From Burkholderiaceae bacterium (GTDB lineage: Bacteria > Pseudomonadota > Gammaproteobacteria > Burkholderiales > Burkholderiaceae_D), in contig JAOASL010000030.1 of the NCBI GenBank assembly GCA_030158675.1, positions 32,187 to 96,186 on the forward strand: a DNA stretch of 64,000 nucleotides, read 5' to 3'. This document shows, piece by piece, positions 10,634 through 56,740 of this stretch. The position numbers and the translations under genes are program-made. Numbering within the stretch: position 1 is the first letter of the stretch; every line of letters begins with the position of its first letter. The notes beneath the pieces were generated by a model. The model searched no databases, was not told the origin of the DNA, and saw only the letters and a list, made by a program, of their open reading frames with translations.

Positions 10634-11026
10634 ATGGACGACCTGAACGAACAACAGAAAACACGGCTTGGCGAGGTGCTGTTACAGCGCGAGCTGGCAT
10701 TGCGAGCCGATATCCAGCGCGAGATCAGCTCGCAGGACGAATACGTTCAGTTGGCCAGTGAGGTGCCGGATCCGGGTGACCTCTCGTTCGCCAACCTGTC
10801 GGTTGATCTCGGCAACGCAGCAGTGAGCCGCGATCTGCATGAATTGCGCGCAGTCGAGCTGGCGCGCAAGCGAATGGCCAACGGTGTCTATGGGGAGTGC
10901 GCCTCTTGCGGCTACCCGATACCGTTCGAGCGTCTGCTGGCGATGCCTTCAGCTGAGCGCTGCGCGCCTTGCCAGGAAAATTTCGAGCGCACACACCATG
11001 AAGGGCATCGGGGCGCGACGATGTAG
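10634..11026 (+). CDS. DksA/TraR-family C4 zinc-finger protein
   Basis: 130 aa from the ATG at 10634, which has AGAGGTG 9 bp upstream; longer in-frame starts give an unrelated N terminus. The C-terminal finger has two Cys pairs, 'CASCGYPIPFERL' and 'CAPC', the DksA/TraR layout. The N-terminal coiled coil (about residues 1-85) should reach into the secondary channel of RNA polymerase. At its tip the sequence is 'DPGDLSFANLSVD', which does not give the DxxDxA tip of true DksA, so this is more likely a DksA-like paralogue than the stringent-response DksA. Monocistronic. Confidence 0.75.
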   Translation: MDDLNEQQKTRLGEVLLQRELALRADIQREISSQDEYVQLASEVPDPGDLSFANLSVDLGNAAVSRDLHELRAVELARKRMANGVYGECASCGYPIPFERLLAMPSAERCAPCQENFERTHHEGHRGATM

Positions 11027-11040
11027 CGCGCCATGCAGAT

Positions 11041-11064
11041 GGGCATAGGCATGCTGCTATGCCC
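11041..11064. terminator. Possible terminator hairpin between convergent genes
   Basis: GGGCATAG (11041-11048) and CTATGCCC (11057-11064) form a perfect 8-bp stem with an 8-nt loop, in the short gap between the converging DksA-like and LRR genes. There is no T-tract on either side, so intrinsic termination would be weak. Confidence 0.35.
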
Positions 11065-11110
11065 GGCCACCTCCCCCTGTTCAATCCTCATTCGCGCAAG
11101 CCCGGCTGAT

Positions 11111-12796
11111 TTATTCGGCCGATCGAGCGGAGGTATTCTGATCTTCCGCCTTGCTGTCGGTAACAGGAAAGGATGCTGGTATTTGCTGCTGATTGGCCTG
11201 GGTTTGCTGCGCCTGATTATTCATCGAAAGCACCATCTCTTGCATTACAGCATCAGTTTCCACTGCTGCTTTTTGAGGATCGGTTGCGCGTTTAATTTCG
11301 AGTACCTTTTGAGCCAGAAGTGCGCCCAATTCTGAAGGCAGTTCAAGGTATGGAATCCTTTGCGTCCCCGTAAAAGCAAGGCTCCATTTTTCTTCCAATG
11401 CCCGCATCTCAGATCGTACGTTACTGATTAAAATGGGCTCGATCTTTTTTTCTTTAATTTTCTTAACCGCTTCGTCATCAATGTCATGGGTGATGTCAAT
11501 AATTTCCAGTCTGCGCAAGCAGTGATTTTTTTCCAAGCCTGACGCAATGATCGAAGCACTTTCAGCGTCGATGTAACTGGAAGATAAATTGAGGCTTTGG
11601 AGCCGCGGCGAGCTCGCCAGAAATTTGCTGATGCTGAAGGCAGCCGCCTTGCCGCAATGATTATCTGAAAGATTGATATCTGTCAGAGTCCAGTTGTCCG
11701 GAGGTCCGGAAAACAGGTCCGCTATAAATTTATCGTCCAGCTCACCTGATGAAAGATTCAAAAATCGCAAACTGGGGTGTTCTACGAGGGTGCGTCTCAA
11801 CGTATCAAAAGATTCTTTGCTGCCTTCCGGCGAGCTTTGCTTCAAAGAGACTCGGCAGACACTCAACTTCTGTAATGTTGTCTGATCTTGTATGCAGTTG
11901 ATCAGAAAATCACCAGTCAGACTTCCTGAAAAGAAACCATCGATTTGTAGATTCTGTAAGCATTGACACTTCGAAATTATTTCCGCCCAATCATTGGTTG
12001 AATTATTTATAACCACTCCTTTTTCAATAATCAATTTCTGAAGATGGGGTAAATTTTTCAGAGAAATAAAATGGGAATTGACGTCTCCATCGATCAATTT
12101 TCCGGAGAATTTTACTTCTGTCAGACCCGAATTGGCTTCAATGACTTTTCCAATTCCTGATGAATTTTTTGATGAGGAATCGTCTTGGCAATCCGAGGCC
12201 GAAAAGGAAAATCCCTCTAAGGACAGCGTTGTCAGGTTAGTTTTTTTACTTAATGAATAAAATATATCAGCGAAGCTGGGTGGCGCATCGTCTTTATTGC
12301 AACTCAATTGAATTTCTTGCAAATACGAATTCTTGCAAATCTGACTGGCTGAACCGACTGTTTGGGAACCGAAACTCAGGTTCAGCTTGGTCACCGATGG
12401 ACTGTTTTCCAGCAATTCACCCAGCTTCATGCCGGCTTCTTCAGTCTCGCAATGGTAGGTCATCATGTCGGTTCCGCTCGCCTGTATTGCATACCGAGCC
12501 AGATCCATTTGATTAAGGCCCATCGCCAGTTCTTCAATCAGCTCAAACATCTCGTCGCTGTTGGCCTTGGGAAGTTCTCCGAGCACCAGAAAATTATTCA
12601 GTAGATTCCGATTGGGGTCGAATGTGCTCAACTTCAAATATTCTTCCGGCGTATATCGGGATACTAGGCCTGATGTGCTAATGAGAGCCGGCAGTTTATC
12701 TATCGATTTACTTGGCTTATGAGTGCCCTGTTCTGATGCTGTATCAAGCGGTGAAACCTGCGATGGAGCACTGAAATTTCTGGCAACCGGCCGCAT
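11111..12796 (-). CDS. Leucine-rich-repeat protein, effector-like
   Basis: 561 aa with a good ribosome-binding site (AAAGGAG) before the ATG. Residues 1-50 are Ser/Thr/Pro-rich without a hydrophobic signal. About residues 130-440 contain ribonuclease-inhibitor-type leucine-rich repeats, seen in units such as 'VTKLNLSFGSQTV', 'LTTLSLEGFSF', 'LRFLNLSSGELDD', 'LTDINLSDNHCGKAAA' and 'LQSLNLSSSYIDAESA'. The tail (about 500-561) is Gln/Ser-rich. Eukaryote-like LRRs plus an unstructured Ser/Pro N terminus suggest a type III secretion effector, as in the GALA proteins of Ralstonia, but no F-box and no E3-ligase domain is seen. The gene is clearly more AT-rich than its neighbours, which points to horizontal transfer. 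No secretion genes are in the window. Confidence 0.7.
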   Translation of the reverse strand: MRPVARNFSAPSQVSPLDTASEQGTHKPSKSIDKLPALISTSGLVSRYTPEEYLKLSTFDPNRNLLNNFLVLGELPKANSDEMFELIEELAMGLNQMDLARYAIQASGTDMMTYHCETEEAGMKLGELLENSPSVTKLNLSFGSQTVGSASQICKNSYLQEIQLSCNKDDAPPSFADIFYSLSKKTNLTTLSLEGFSFSASDCQDDSSSKNSSGIGKVIEANSGLTEVKFSGKLIDGDVNSHFISLKNLPHLQKLIIEKGVVINNSTNDWAEIISKCQCLQNLQIDGFFSGSLTGDFLINCIQDQTTLQKLSVCRVSLKQSSPEGSKESFDTLRRTLVEHPSLRFLNLSSGELDDKFIADLFSGPPDNWTLTDINLSDNHCGKAAAFSISKFLASSPRLQSLNLSSSYIDAESASIIASGLEKNHCLRRLEIIDITHDIDDEAVKKIKEKKIEPILISNVRSEMRALEEKWSLAFTGTQRIPYLELPSELGALLAQKVLEIKRATDPQKAAVETDAVMQEMVLSMNNQAQQTQANQQQIPASFPVTDSKAEDQNTSARSAE

Positions 12797-51167: not shown

Positions 51168-51809
51168 ATGGCATGGACACGTGAACAAATGGCGGCGCGC
51201 GCCGCCCAAGAGCTGCAGGACGGCTTCTATGTGAACCTCGGCATCGGCCTGCCGACGCTGGTAGCGAACTATGTACCGAAGGACATCACCGTTTGGCTGC
51301 AGTCAGAAAACGGCTTGCTCGGGATTGGCCCGTTCCCGGCCGATGAAGAGGTCGATGCCGATCTGATCAACGCCGGCAAGCAGACGGTGACGGCGCTGCA
51401 GGGCTCGTCATTCTTCAGCTCGGCCGATTCCTTCGCGATGATCCGCGGCGGCAAGATCAACATCGCGATCCTGGGTGCGATGCAAGTGTCAGAGCGCGGC
51501 GACCTGGCGAACTGGATGATTCCGGGGAAGATGGTCAAGGGCATGGGTGGTGCGATGGACTTGGTGGCCGGCGTTGGCCGCGTCGTGGTGCTGATGGAGC
51601 ATGTCGCCAAAGCGAAGGATGGTTCCACCTCGCACAAGCTGCTCGAGCACTGTACGCTGCCGCTGACCGGTGTCGGTGTGGTCGACCGTATCGTGACTGA
51701 TCTGGCGGTGCTGGACGTCACCGAGCACGGGCTGAAGCTGGTCGAGCTGGCGCCGGGCATCACAAAAGAAGAACTGATCGCTGGCACGGGCTGCGAGATC
51801 CACTTCTGA
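51168..51809 (+). CDS. scoB: 3-oxoacid CoA-transferase, subunit B
   Basis: 213 aa, 14 bp after subunit A with its own GCGGAGA site. The catalytic Glu, which carries the CoA thioester intermediate, is in '[12 protein letters not shown]'. '[32 protein letters not shown]' is a family signature. Partner of subunit A. Confidence 0.93.
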
Positions 51810-51838: not shown

Positions 51839-51870
51839 AAGCCGGTCGGCTTGTGCTGGCCGGCTTTTTT
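51839..51870 (+). terminator. Terminator after the CoA-transferase operon
   Basis: AAGCCGG (51839-51845) pairs with CCGGCTT (51860-51866) around a 14-nt loop, followed by T6. Confidence 0.85.
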
Positions 51871-52456
51871 CATGGGATTCAGGATCTGATCTATTCCCTG
51901 TTCATAGCCATCTGCATCGATTTGATTCCTTCAAGCCGCATAGCTCAGGGTATCGGTCAGGCATACAAAAAGAGCGCGCGGAATTGTCAGGGGAACGGCA
52001 TCTATCCGCTGATAGTGAAATTCCGTAGTGCACCACAGACCGTGTCGTGTCACGGCTCTCGTATCCGAGAGTGTGGCGCGCGCGCGTGTCGGAACCTCGC
52101 ACGAAGATCCCGCGTAGGGGCACGGTGGCCATCCTGCGGAGCCACGCCAGGGCGATCCCGCTGCCGACGTTCGTCAACTCGTTCTTTCAGCTGCATCGCT
52201 CTTGGTAATAGCTTACCGAGGGTACGAGCACGGACAGAAAGGCCAACGCTCCCACGCGCCCAGTCAGGCCGAAGAGAGCACCTGCAGTGAGGGCAAAGGA
52301 GCGAAGGTTGGGCTCAGATCAGCAAACCCGGCTGGCAATGTCGATATGAGCAATCTCCCTGCAGGAGGGGTTCTCATCAGATAGCGTCAACCGGGTTTTC
52401 GTTTTTGCGCGCCATTCAAATGGATAAAGCGGAGCTAACCGCATATATTGATAACC
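51871..52456. other. Gene-free region at the left edge of the AT-rich cassette
   Basis: About 585 bp. Reading frames are short, overlap on both strands and show no motif. A small hairpin CTCTCG-TATC-CGAGAG lies at 52056-52071. The base composition changes from GC-rich to AT-rich around 52.38 kb. It could be a decayed mobile element or a former sco-bdh spacer; nothing in it can be assigned. Confidence 0.45.
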
Positions 52457-53242
52457 ATGATGAATGAGTCCTTAATTGCACAATCGGTTTTTTTTGACGA
52501 AGTCTATTACCGCGCCCAGTTGTCTTCGACTCTTCCTGCTGGCATGACCCCGGCATCTCATTATCTAAATCAAGGATGGCACCAAGGTCTGGATCCCGGC
52601 CCCTTGTTCAGCACCTTACGCTATCTTTGGCGGAATGAAGATGTGCGCAATGCTGGACTGAATCCATTATTGCATTATTTGCATTGCGGGCTCAGTGAAG
52701 GGCGCAGAGCTTGGTCATCACCGGAGGTCATGCGTTGGCAGCAACCGTGGTTCAGTAATCCGGAGCTTGCACTGGCAGAAACCCAAAAATCTGCAAAGGC
52801 ATGGCCCACGCTTAGTTGCGGCGATAAAGTTGTTATTTACAGTCACTCTCAAGGTCACTTTGTTTTTCGGCAGTTTCAGGAAATGCTTGTTCAAGCATTT
52901 CAAGAGATTGGTATTGAAGCAATTGCTGCAAATGAAAATTTGACTTCGTCTGCGACCAAGCCCGTTCTGACGCTTGTTTTAGCGCCGCATTATGGTTTAA
53001 TGCAAGGCAATTGCGTTGTTACTGAATCCTCGCCTCGGGTAATCGATCTCACGCCAGGAGTGGATTATATTGAGGCAAAAAAAGATGAAATTCCTTCGAT
53101 TGTTGAATGGTTGCTTGAATCCGCTGAAGGGAAAGTGAAGCTCGGTGAAGTAAGGCTTGCTGGGCAAAAAATGGCCATAAAAAAATATAATCTTGGCCGC
53201 GCTCTTTCTGAGATTTTCAGGGTGCACACTAATTATGGATAA
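52457..53242 (+). CDS. Protein with capsule-glycosyltransferase-type repeats, first gene of the cassette
   Basis: 261 aa from the ATG at 52457 (an ATG at 52460 and a TTG at 52448 are alternatives). Residues about 8-80 hold two copies of the 'FDxxYY...HYLxxGWxxGxDPxPLF' type repeat ('HYLNQGWHQGLDP', 'NPLLHYLHCGLSEGR') found at the N termini of many capsule and rhamnan glycosyltransferases. The rest has Rossmann-like stretches ('KVVIYSHSQGHFVFRQFQEML') and ends in a helical tail, but is too short for a complete GT-B enzyme. AT-rich. It overlaps the next gene by 8 bp. Its function is unknown; a substrate-recognition or partial transferase role is inference only. Confidence 0.65.
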   Translation: MMNESLIAQSVFFDEVYYRAQLSSTLPAGMTPASHYLNQGWHQGLDPGPLFSTLRYLWRNEDVRNAGLNPLLHYLHCGLSEGRRAWSSPEVMRWQQPWFSNPELALAETQKSAKAWPTLSCGDKVVIYSHSQGHFVFRQFQEMLVQAFQEIGIEAIAANENLTSSATKPVLTLVLAPHYGLMQGNCVVTESSPRVIDLTPGVDYIEAKKDEIPSIVEWLLESAEGKVKLGEVRLAGQKMAIKKYNLGRALSEIFRVHTNYG

Positions 53243-54962
53243 GCAAGGCTATCGATTTGGCATGAGACAACCCGCAATTCGGGTTAAAGTTGTATTCAGG
53301 CTTCCCAGAAAAATTTCGTTTGAACAGTTAGATCGGTGGATTCTGGAGGCATTGGAATATGATATACAAGACTATCAACCAAAATTTATAAAAAATAAAC
53401 CTACAGGAAGTGCTGAGGAAAAATACTTGGTTCGATGGCTCTATGTCACTACGATTCTCCTGCAGGATATTCGTGTGCCTGTTTTTGAACGAGCCTCGGT
53501 CGTCAGCATTGGGAAAGATAATAGTCGAAAACAGCACTTTATCGCAGATATTTGGTTCCCGATCGTAGAGGCTTTGCCACTTAATTTATTTCATTCCTGG
53601 TTGTCGATTGCCAATAATTTGATTATCAATTTATTTGAAAATCTCCCTAATGACAATTCATTTGAGGATTTGTACCAAGCATTTCAAAATAAATATGTTC
53701 TGCCTTGGTCCGGTAAAATTCCTGGCGGGAAATCAACTATTCCTATATTACAGGCAGCCTTTGAATCAGGAATTCCTTTTGCTCACTGTGGCTCTGGCCG
53801 TTATGTACTGGGCTGGGGTAGCAAATCAAGGGTATTTGACCGGAGCAGTAATATTTTGGATAGTGCGATCGGCTCGACAGCCACTCAAAATAAACACGTT
53901 GCCTTGGAAATGATGCGCTTTTCTGGCATACCAGTACCAAATGGCATAGTGTTTAAATCAGGACAACAAGTCAGTTTAATATCTTTGGCACATTTGCGCT
54001 TACCGCTGGTGGTCAAACCGGTAGACAGGGACCGGGGCGAAGGCGTCACTATGGGAGTAAATACTGAAGAGGCTCTTCAATCGGCCATCGAATGCGCTTC
54101 AAAACTTTCAAGGCAGTTTCTTATTGAGGAGCAGGTTGAAGGAACATGCCACAGAATATTGGTCATTGAAGGAAAAATTGTCTATTCGGTCAAGCGAAAT
54201 CCAAAAGCGGTAGTAGGTGATGGCATTAGTACTATTGAAGCATTAGTTAATAATCTAAATGCCAAGATAAGGAAAAAAATTCCTAATAAGCGACTGCCAG
54301 AATATCAGCTGGATCTTCAGGCGATTAATTTTTTGGCAGAAATTGGCCTAAATCCGAAAAGTGTCCTTAGCCATGGACAGAAAGTTTTCCTGCGACCTGC
54401 ACAGTCGACTCAGTGGGGTGGCGATCCGGAGGATGTGACTACAAACCTGCATCCGGAAAATGCTGAAATTGCGATCCGGGCGGCACAATTATTTGGCCTT
54501 AATTGCGCTGGCGTTGATTTCATTTCGACAGATATAGCAATACCTTGGCACCAGAGTGGTGCTGTCATTAATGAAGTGAATCACACCCCAGTCATGGGTC
54601 GTACACATCAGTTTCAGCGCAGGGCAGCGCAAACTTATATGGAATTATTATTTCCCACAAAAGGAAAAATACCGATCGACATCTTCATCGGATCGGATGC
54701 TAAGCAGCAAGCACTTGGCAAATGGCGGCAACAAATTGATATGGGTAAAAAATCAGTATTCTGTTCGGAGCAGGGAATTATAAAGCCGAATGGGCAGCCG
54801 CTGCATTTGGCGGGCTCACAATCAGTTTACGAAAAAATTGCCATGCTTCGGACTGATGTGTCCATTGATGCGATCGTTATTTATACCAAAAACAAAGATC
54901 TCTTTGCATTCAATGGGCAGCCTTTTGAATATACATCTGTTAATCAGAGTGATGCTGCTTAA
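53235..54962 (+). CDS. Cyanophycin-synthetase-like ATP-grasp ligase with degenerate, truncated Mur domain
   Basis: 575 aa from the ATG at 53235. Residues about 1-215 match the CphA N domain, ending in 'GKSTIPILQAAFESGIPF...GSGRYVLGWGSKSRVF'. An ATP-grasp domain follows (about 220-475) with nucleotide-binding Lys261 in 'VVKPVDRDRGEG', 'LIEEQVEGTCHRILVI' and metal ligands Glu447 and Asn449 in 'INEVNHTP'. The rest aligns by eye with the start of the CphA Mur-ligase domain, but the P-loop GTNGKTTT is replaced by 'GSDAKQQA' (486-493) and the chain stops about 80 residues later. CphA1 is about 870-900 aa; this size and a dead Mur part recall cyanobacterial CphA2, which joins beta-Asp-Arg dipeptides. 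The substrate here is unknown. AT-rich, coupled on both sides. Confidence 0.82.
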   Translation: MDKQGYRFGMRQPAIRVKVVFRLPRKISFEQLDRWILEALEYDIQDYQPKFIKNKPTGSAEEKYLVRWLYVTTILLQDIRVPVFERASVVSIGKDNSRKQHFIADIWFPIVEALPLNLFHSWLSIANNLIINLFENLPNDNSFEDLYQAFQNKYVLPWSGKIPGGKSTIPILQAAFESGIPFAHCGSGRYVLGWGSKSRVFDRSSNILDSAIGSTATQNKHVALEMMRFSGIPVPNGIVFKSGQQVSLISLAHLRLPLVVKPVDRDRGEGVTMGVNTEEALQSAIECASKLSRQFLIEEQVEGTCHRILVIEGKIVYSVKRNPKAVVGDGISTIEALVNNLNAKIRKKIPNKRLPEYQLDLQAINFLAEIGLNPKSVLSHGQKVFLRPAQSTQWGGDPEDVTTNLHPENAEIAIRAAQLFGLNCAGVDFISTDIAIPWHQSGAVINEVNHTPVMGRTHQFQRRAAQTYMELLFPTKGKIPIDIFIGSDAKQQALGKWRQQIDMGKKSVFCSEQGIIKPNGQPLHLAGSQSVYEKIAMLRTDVSIDAIVIYTKNKDLFAFNGQPFEYTSVNQSDAA

Positions 54963-54964
54963 GC

Positions 54965-55522
54965 ATGATTGATTTTACCGAGAAAGGTATCAGGGAAATA
55001 ACCGACTACATGTTTTTATCGGATAGCCCACTTGACGCTGATGCAACTATTGTTCTCGGACAGACGCTTTGGCATAGGCCATTTAAAAAATCGATAGAGA
55101 TCTATAAGGCAGGTATTTCTGGAAAGCTTATTTTTACAGGTGGATTCAATCCCAAACTGGGATGCCCAGAAGCTTTGTGCATGCAACGGACTTGGGGAAA
55201 AATGCGGTACTGCTTGGATGATGTCTTGATTGATAATGAAGCTACCAACACCAAGGAAAACATGCAAAATGCGAAGGTGCTTATGGAGAAGGCAAATATA
55301 CTAAAGAATGGAGCTGTAATTAATGTTGTGGCAATAAATTATCATATGCGCCGCGCCGTCGAGACATTAAAATATGTTTTTGCAAATGATTCATTGCAAA
55401 TAGGAATCGTCAATTACAAAAGCAAATATTGCGATCCCGCCTTGTGGTTTGACAATCAATATGGCCGTTCTTTGGTGATTAATGAATTCATGAAAATTAA
55501 AAAATATCTGGCTGACGTTTAA
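54965..55522 (+). CDS. YdcF/DUF218-family protein
   Basis: 185 aa, 2 bp after the ligase gene. 'DADATIVLGQTLWHRPFKKSIEIYKAGISGKLIFTGGF', 'DEATNTKENMQNAKVL'-type sequence (here 'NEATNTKENMQNAKVLM') and 'AINYHMRRAVETL' are DUF218 signatures. Unlike SanA or ElyC it has no membrane helix, so it should be cytoplasmic. The family is linked to envelope precursor metabolism in E. coli, with no agreed reaction. Last gene of the AT-rich cassette. Confidence 0.82.
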   Translation: MIDFTEKGIREITDYMFLSDSPLDADATIVLGQTLWHRPFKKSIEIYKAGISGKLIFTGGFNPKLGCPEALCMQRTWGKMRYCLDDVLIDNEATNTKENMQNAKVLMEKANILKNGAVINVVAINYHMRRAVETLKYVFANDSLQIGIVNYKSKYCDPALWFDNQYGRSLVINEFMKIKKYLADV

Positions 55523-55585
55523 GGCCTCTAATCAGATGTGCCAGTATGCGCTGAGCGACTTCCTGAGCTTTGCGGAAGAAGTGTG

Positions 55586-55850
55586 ATGGTCAGGCCGCTG
55601 CCGGCCGGTCAGTTATCAAATTTGAGCGCACCGCTGTTACCGCTCCGGTCATCACGCCGGTTTACGTACCCAAGTCGACGATCGGGGGGGCGCTGACCGG
55701 CGTCCAGTTCCTACTCAAGAGCGATCTTGCTTGGCAGTATCTGCCGCAGGGTCTCGGCCGGGACACGCTGCGCTGGATGGTTGAGACAACCAGCGCAGCG
55801 TGCATCAGTGTCACCACTTACGCGTCAAGCATGAAAAAAAACTTGGCCGA
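55586..55850 (+). pseudogene. Frameshifted remnant of an IS5-type transposase N terminus
   Basis: From the ATG at 55586 the frame reads 'MVRPLPAGQLSNLSAPLL' then 'RRFTYPSRRSGG', like the N terminus of IS5-family transposases. At a G7 run (55684-55690) the match moves to another frame and continues 'GALTGVQFLLKSDLAWQYLPQGLG' (consensus 'ALTGILFVLKTGIPWEDLPQEMG'). Near 55775 it moves again ('WLRQPAQRASVSPL'). At least two frameshifts and loss of the whole catalytic part make it inactive. No inverted repeats were found. Confidence 0.65.
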
Positions 55851-55945
55851 ATCCATCAATCCATCAAGTGGACGATGCAGTCGACGTCAGTAGTCGCTGT
55901 CTGATACGTGAATTGACGATCGGCCGAGGTCGATGATGTGGGTCG

Positions 55946-56740
55946 TTACTGCGCGACCCAGCCACCATCCATATTCCACGCGACGCCGCGTACCTGTGAC
56001 GCCGCATCGCTGCACAGGAACAGCGCCAGTGCGCCGAGCTGTTCCGGCGTGACGAATTCACCAGATGGCTGCTTCTCCAGCAGCAGCTCGCGCTTGGCTT
56101 GCTCAAGCGGGATGTTATTGGCGGCCGCGCGCGCATCCACCTGCTTCTGCACCAGCGGAGTCAGCACCCAGCCCGGACAGATGGCATTACAAGTGATGCC
56201 CGTCTGTGCATTCTCCAGGGCAGTGACCTTGGTCAGGCCGACGATTCCGTGCTTCGACGCAACGTAGGCAGACTTGCCAACCGACGCCACCAGACCGTGC
56301 GCTGACGCGATGTTAATGATGCGTCCCCAGTTGTTCTTCTGCATCGCCGGCAGTGCCAGGCGCGTGGTATGGAAAGCAGAGGTCAGGTTGATCGCAATGA
56401 TCGCGTCCCAGCGCTCGACCGGGAAGTCTTCGATATTCGCCACGAACTGTATGCCGGCGTTGTTGACCAGGATGTCGACACTGCCGAAGCGGGCGATGGC
56501 TTCCGTCATCATTTGTTCGATTTCGCCCGGCTTGCTCATGTCAGCACCGCTGTAGGCAGTCTTCACACCGAATGTCGCTGCTGTCTGTTGCTGCAGATCG
56601 GCAATCTGCGCCGCATCACCAAAACCGTTGAATAAAATGTTGGCACCTTCGGCGGCCAGTGCATGCGCAATGCCCAGGCCGATGCCTGATGTGGAGCCGG
56701 TGACGAGTGCGGTTTTGCCTGAAAGCTGACGATTCTGCAT
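55946..56740 (-). CDS. bdhA: 3-hydroxybutyrate dehydrogenase
   Basis: 264 aa SDR. 'TALVTGSTSGIGLGIAHALAAEGANILFNGFGD' binds NAD, 'NNAGIQFVANIEDFPVERWDAIIAINL' and 'YVASKHGIVGLTKV' (Tyr-x3-Lys) are those of D-3-hydroxybutyrate dehydrogenases, as is 'ICPGWVLTPLVQKQV'. It makes acetoacetate, the substrate of the CoA-transferase encoded 4 kb upstream. AGAGGAAAG is its ribosome-binding site. Confidence 0.92.
   Translation of the reverse strand: MQNRQLSGKTALVTGSTSGIGLGIAHALAAEGANILFNGFGDAAQIADLQQQTAATFGVKTAYSGADMSKPGEIEQMMTEAIARFGSVDILVNNAGIQFVANIEDFPVERWDAIIAINLTSAFHTTRLALPAMQKNNWGRIINIASAHGLVASVGKSAYVASKHGIVGLTKVTALENAQTGITCNAICPGWVLTPLVQKQVDARAAANNIPLEQAKRELLLEKQPSGEFVTPEQLGALALFLCSDAASQVRGVAWNMDGGWVAQ

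Follow-up and report, generated by a model that had tools for sequence, protein, structure and literature searches.

We found that a low-GC block in a 64,000-nucleotide stretch of a Burkholderiaceae bacterium genome (contig JAOASL010000030.1; hereafter, the window) carries a two-gene unit in which a ligase of the CphA type is directly followed by a DUF218 protein. The ligase is encoded by open reading frame 2 (ORF2; 53235..54962, + strand, 575 aa) and its conserved partner by ORF3 (54965..55522, + strand, 185 aa), with a further gene, ORF1 (52457..53242, + strand), immediately upstream. Cyanophycin is the main known product of CphA enzymes. We consider it probable, at roughly 60%, that ORF2 is an amide ligase of a distinct CphA lineage that acts on a non-cyanophycin substrate together with a dedicated DUF218 partner, and that it was acquired horizontally. 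A preliminary description had presented the three genes as one cassette built around a CphA2-like ligase, and its coordinates, the 8-bp overlap between ORF1 and ORF2, the 2-bp gap between ORF2 and ORF3, the reading frames and the lowered GC content (0.459, 0.425 and 0.387 for ORF1 to ORF3 vs 0.612 for the whole window) were all correct.

ORF2 has the three-part architecture of CphA2, with an intact G domain and a truncated M domain. Its predicted structure (predicted local distance difference test score, pLDDT, of 91.5) consists of an N domain (residues ~1–160), an ATP-grasp G domain (~164–476) and a truncated Mur-like stub (~479–575), all with approximate borders. Cyanophycin synthetase models match residues 164–493, the NF010623 model at 8e-67 and 226 bits, under its full-length cut-off of 877. 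The protein stops ~95 residues into the M domain and has no P-loop, IPIDIFIGSDAKQQ occupying the position of GTNGKTT. CphA1 is marked by a complete Mur-like M domain that includes a GTNGKTT P-loop, which ORF2 does not have. The HxxEH motif, assigned to the CphA1 N domain in PMC9262961, is likewise missing from ORF2; it was found in 4 of 80 sequences, all of them CphA1-type.

The term CphA2-like fits ORF2 by architecture, not by lineage. In the ligase tree that the preliminary description had called for (from which 5 of the 80 rows had been excluded for an overly short G domain), ORF2 falls within a separate 53-row clade, outside both CphA1 and CphA2. The nine CphA2 rows form a clade of their own (100/100), which, joined by the CphA1 rows and one paralogue from the host genome, becomes a side of 20 rows (100/97) without ORF2. 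The ligases of the window and of two other loci, L069 and L099, form a single clade (100/99), and this clade groups with a paralogue on contig C1 of the host genome and with a Nitrotoga locus, L070 (98/87).

We mapped the active site of ORF2 onto that of TeCphA1, with residue roles taken from PMC9427784. The residues for ATP, Mg and the acyl phosphate are retained: the two ATP-binding lysines, the Mg-binding Asp and Glu and the ExN motif are kept (Lys220, Lys261, Asp428, Glu447 and Asn449), as are Arg309 and Arg323 of TeCphA1 (Arg307 and Arg321 of ORF2). Judged by these residues, ORF2 looks active as an ATP-grasp amide ligase. The aspartate pocket is altered, with Asn394 changed to Ser391 and Ser396 to Gln393, adjoining a Trp, and Arg458 changed to Gly455; among the residues that bind Asp in CphA1 (Asn394, Ser396, Arg323 and Arg458), only the Arg323 equivalent is left. 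Asn394 and Ser396 are both retained in 10 of 11 CphA1 rows and in 9 of 9 CphA2 rows. The ORF2 clade contributes 44 rows, 42 with letters at the pocket, where the Asn appears in 1 and the Ser in 0. A non-cyanophycin product, as the preliminary description had proposed, is likely, given that the ligase branches outside CphA1 and CphA2 and is missing the Asn394/Ser396 pair. Its amine substrate is probably something other than Asp or β-Asp-Arg.

The same data bear on whether ORF2 could be a true CphA2, a β-Asp-Arg polymerase that recycles cyanophycin dipeptides. It has the matching three-part architecture, and two long CphA-type genes are present on contig C40 of the host genome (reading frames of 882 aa and, with a changed Mur P-loop, 802 aa). 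However, ORF2 belongs to a separate clade and has lost the pair that every CphA2 row keeps, and a search of the whole host genome for a TIGR02069 cyanophycinase, the one cyanophycin-breakdown gene looked for, gave none. This identity is highly improbable, and we rejected it on the tree and the loss of Asn394/Ser396. A normal CphA2 with cphA1 elsewhere in the genome, the finding that was to count against the original proposal, is matched in its second half only: the genome contains long cphA genes, but ORF2 differs from a normal CphA2.

ORF3 is a DUF218 protein (PF02698, 59.1 bits vs a cut-off of 27.6), in which inspection by eye only revealed no signal or membrane segment. We compared 54 ligase-family loci, 46 from a scan of genome contigs and 8 stretches from the host genome and Undibacterium fentianense (L043 and L099 are duplicate labels, as are L045 and L108). 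An ORF3-homologous DUF218 gene lies directly after the ligase gene in L069, from a Comamonadaceae metagenome-assembled genome (8-bp overlap, 41–42% identity), and in L099, from U. fentianense (4-bp overlap, 38% identity), and in no other of the 54 loci besides the window. The pair is thus present in 3 of 3 members of the window/L069/L099 clade, and the DUF218 residues common to both relatives are retained in ORF3. Across 398 other genomes of the order, ORF3 had no match elsewhere better than 8e-9. The ligase and DUF218 genes are a two-gene unit conserved in three lineages. The proposed three-gene cassette did not hold: its gene order was not refound elsewhere, and no ORF1 homologue was found in any of the 54 loci. 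Because DUF218 recurs at L069 and L099 and ORF1 does not, the conserved unit has two genes, not three.

The three genes sit in a block (51876..55930, no strand assigned, ends estimated) between a CoA-transferase gene (51168..51809, + strand, PF01144) and a short-chain dehydrogenase gene (55946..56740, − strand), which we take to be 3-hydroxybutyrate dehydrogenase-like. We compared this arrangement with 15 same-genus loci that contain the left-flank gene (L135–L149, out of 21 genomes). In 12 of the 15, the flank that was fetched includes the dehydrogenase gene; in L147, L148 and L149 it does not. The flanking genes are ~110–440 bp apart, measured between alignment ends, in five loci (L135, L140, L141, L144 and L145) and ~0.8–1.5 kb apart in seven, compared to 4.1 kb in the window. 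Because the flanking genes are much closer together in these genomes, we read the block as inserted; the ~4-kb low-GC block is an insertion at a site that varies within the genus. Four of the seven longer intervals were inspected (L136, L137, L138 and L142) and have a GC content of 0.46–0.51 and a longest ORF of 209–345 aa; in these four, another, lower-GC ORF occupies the same site.

A terminator-like hairpin (51841–51865) stands downstream of the CoA-transferase gene, on the left side of the block; promoter-like and terminator-like sites did not rise above the level of shuffled sequences. No mobile-element gene was identified at the insertion by Pfam or by DNA comparison with plasmids, and a worn transposase suspected by eye at 55640–55890 is not claimed because neither search matched it. 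A phage or defence origin was rejected, with no relative confirmed in viral_contigs and no PADLOC match; ORF2 has a single weak PHROG match, to a RimK-like family (4.7e-7). Among plasmids, 129 records match ORF2, all at <60% identity, and one spans 80% of its length. A second low-GC stretch of the window (11111-12796, − strand) encodes a 561-aa protein that appears leucine-rich-repeat-like by eye and has no Pfam match at E 0.001.

Several observations weigh against the favoured reading of ORF2 as an amide ligase of a distinct lineage with its own partner. The known ligase–DUF218 pairs number only three, and one of them comes from a metagenome-assembled genome. The mapping onto TeCphA1 relies on a low-identity alignment (22–35%). 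A second, sister clade of short ligases retains Asn394 in 13 of 13 rows and Ser396 in 6 of 13. Three further positions changed in ORF2 have no discriminating power: His267 is present in 4 of 11 CphA1 and 0 of 9 CphA2 rows, Glu215 in 4 of 11 CphA1 rows and 6 of 42 rows of the ORF2 clade, and Arg458 is also missing in 9 of 9 CphA2 rows. We do not argue from these three positions because they are variable in CphA1 or absent in CphA2. Finally, the low-GC block may be nothing more than a passenger, decaying and functionless in its host, as its insertion at a genus-variable site, the degenerate look of ORF1 and the shuffle-level promoter-like sites would allow. All three frames are nevertheless open, and the catalytic residues and the DUF218 residues of the relatives are kept, which makes a mere passenger unlikely.

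Under the favoured reading, ORF2, once expressed, would use ATP to phosphorylate the carboxylate of a peptide-like acceptor, creating an acyl phosphate, and would then couple an amine, probably neither aspartate nor β-Asp-Arg, onto the activated carboxylate. Because its Mur-like half is a structural stub, it would work through one active site. ORF3 would be dedicated to ORF2, probably through translational coupling, and would most likely tailor or release the same product. Either a small metabolite may serve as the acceptor or, going by some of the relatives, a ribosomal peptide whose gene lies elsewhere. The ligase–DUF218 unit would have arrived by horizontal transfer.

The neighbourhoods of related ligases point to peptide chemistry. 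Of the 46 scanned loci, 9 have a peptide hydroxylase of the α-ketoglutarate (aKG)-HExxH type next to the ligase, as does a paralogue on contig C2 of the host genome, which makes ten loci by tblastn (greedy ORF calling had found 7). TIGR04267 confirmed the hydroxylase identity above its cut-off in 4 of 4 proteins tested. Because TIGR04267 occurs in only 10 of 300 genomes of the order, host genome included, its presence beside the ligase in 9 of 46 loci looks well in excess of the background. The same ten loci, and no others among the 56 sequences scanned (window included), contain a short peptide gene of type A or B. The type A motif, [DN]x[ST][KR]L[FYH]G[FY][KR], is found in L077, L078, L082, L085, L089, L090 and L110, and the type B motif, [LI]AP[YF]G[SAT][ML], in the host's C2 locus, L070 (three genes) and L081. 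This overlap is partly circular because both motifs were first spotted in L077, L082 and L070, members of the same set. A further tblastn HExxH match, in L178, has no type A or B peptide in view. Eight peptide start sites were checked, and a ribosome-binding-like stretch was present in six and absent in one, the L081 coordinate not being a start codon. None of ten peptides scanned reached an NCBIfam cut-off.

The host's own C2 locus contains a type B peptide, LLAPYGSLQNLALAAKVGGGK (G000:C2:278621-278773, equal to L040:10622-10774), between a ligase gene (L040:8727-10514, − strand) and an HExxH gene (L040 ~10851-11849, + strand), followed further on by genes for an O-methyltransferase and an adenylating enzyme. 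From its gene content, this set is a candidate for an undescribed cluster resembling those of ribosomally synthesized and post-translationally modified peptides (RiPPs).

Could ORF2 itself add an amino acid or another amine to a protein or short ribosomal peptide from some other locus, the DUF218 protein serving as tailoring partner? This sub-case of the favoured reading draws on the ten relatives' loci that combine a peptide with a hydroxylase of a rare family, and on the grouping of the ORF2 clade with the C1 paralogue and with L070, which has three peptide genes. However, neither a type A or B peptide nor an HExxH gene was found near the window cassette, L069 or L099, a type B profile run across the host genome returned only the known copy and one chance-level match, and the motif overlap carries the circularity described above. 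We regard this sub-case as rather unlikely.

Other enzymes also accompany these ligases. An AMP-binding adenylating enzyme is fused to the ligase N-terminus in L073, L081, L084, L087, L092 and L094 (1069–1111 aa; Pfam support in 5 of 6, L087 by BLAST), and the stretches fetched for L093, L085, L112 and the host's C2 locus each include a separate adenylating enzyme. In U. fentianense, a short ligase gene is followed by a cytochrome P450 gene (L046:7246-11983, PF00067), and a radical SAM gene (L106:3561-4550 and L114:6062-7156) lies directly upstream of a short ligase at two further loci. A wider interpretation, which we put forward tentatively, is that a CphA-derived ligase lineage including ORF2 was repurposed to lengthen or cap peptide acceptors, such as short ribosomal peptides, by forming amide bonds with ATP and without tRNA. 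Its partners would be HExxH hydroxylases, adenylating enzymes fused to the ligase or, on the branch of the window, DUF218.

The host genome (3.0 Mb, 49 contigs) has nine ORF2-like places. Seven are short ligases, six of them inside the 53-row clade; the seventh (L038:8507-10270) lies outside it, near CphA2 on a long branch. Contig C1 (L038 and L039) holds four short ligases in ~12 kb, along with GT4 glycosyltransferase, phosphodiesterase, dehydrogenase-like and methyltransferase-like genes. Among 20 other same-genus genomes, with at most four candidates scored in each, 18 have exactly two ORF2 matches and two have none; no close short ligase was found in any of the 20.

ORF1 (260–261 aa, with an ATG at 52457 or 52460) was found in this genome only. 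It has two N-terminal repeats (residues ~10–85), and only residues ~2–106 match anything; the C-terminal part has no convincing match (best TIGR01766, E 0.11, under cut-off), and the AlphaFold2 model (pLDDT 42) was unusable for a fold search. Repeats of this type also turn up in 14 genomes, out of 398 others of the order that were searched, and in the loci retrieved there; the frames that hold them carry Pfam glycosyltransferase domains in 5 of 7 cases scanned and none in 2. The capsule-transferase repeats reported in ORF1 are of a type found in glycosyltransferase frames, but domain-profile scans gave no glycosyltransferase match in ORF1 itself. The protein looks degenerate by eye and may be an addition specific to this locus, perhaps a glycosyltransferase-type protein in decay. 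Its LAPHYGLM stretch was likened to the type B peptide motif LAPYGSM and judged a chance resemblance.

These repeats underlie the earlier suggestion of a polyamide or dipeptide made for, or attached to, a sugar or envelope precursor. In that view, ORF1 would act as a glycosyltransferase-like partner. Glycosyltransferase genes do lie near the ligases of L069 (a GT2 gene 92 bp downstream of DUF218), L081, L085 and the host's C1 cluster, and ElyC, a DUF218 protein, acts in envelope biogenesis according to PMC3879167. In opposition, ORF1 does not accompany the ligase elsewhere among the compared loci and lacks a glycosyltransferase domain match, and ORF3 looks soluble by eye. The link is weak because it draws on the ORF1 repeats and the GT2 gene at L069, and we hold this product to be improbable.

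If the favoured reading is true, CphA machinery would also serve other peptide chemistry. The basis for this wider role is a clade with the CphA frame and an altered amino-acid pocket. It has six members in a 3-Mb genome, where the placement of a seventh short ligase is uncertain, and in other genomes it is tied to small peptides of ribosomal origin, to hydroxylases and to adenylating domains. If the repurposed-lineage interpretation is also true, it would imply an undescribed class of modified peptides. The ligase pairing also supplies a concrete biochemical context for testing DUF218, a large family of unknown function. Among the literature matches listed, from a search mostly outside subscription papers, nothing links CphA-like ligases to DUF218, to HExxH enzymes or to natural products, and no account of the ORF2 clade, the DUF218 pairing or the peptide neighbours appears; priority is not claimable. 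DUF218 and ATP-grasp occur together in one of these matches, PMC12419801.

Known systems resemble this unit in parts. Some ORF2 relatives adjoin the same hydroxylase family and short peptides as the RiPP systems with aKG-HExxH hydroxylases (pfl/pos, PMC12636437), unlike the window, which has neither the hydroxylase nor a type A or B peptide nearby; the words ligase, ATP-grasp and cyanophycin are absent from the main text of that paper. ORF3 shares its DUF218 domain with YdcF, SanA and ElyC, of which YdcF is the cytoplasmic Escherichia coli protein, and the DUF218 fold is reported as adenine-nucleotide-α-hydrolase-like (both in PMC3879167). Unlike these three, ORF3 is encoded directly after a ligase gene. 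The ATP-grasp domains of the glutathione synthetase GshF/GshAB and of NAGGN synthetase are related to that of ORF2 with lower scores than CphA. CphA1 (TeCphA1, 7wae) is homologous across its residues 7–583 and has identical ATP and Mg ligands, but ORF2 lacks its last ~290 residues, which contain the active Mur ligase, as well as the GTNGKTT loop and Asn394, Ser396 and Arg458. The cyanobacterial CphA2 (PDB 7ta5 and 8fxh) is alike in its N domain, ATP-grasp G domain and truncated Mur-like domain, its one active site and its lack of HxxEH. It belongs to another clade, however, and keeps Asn394/Ser396 and mostly a KPVxGHKG loop, whereas ORF2 has KPVDRDRGEG and QSTQWGG.

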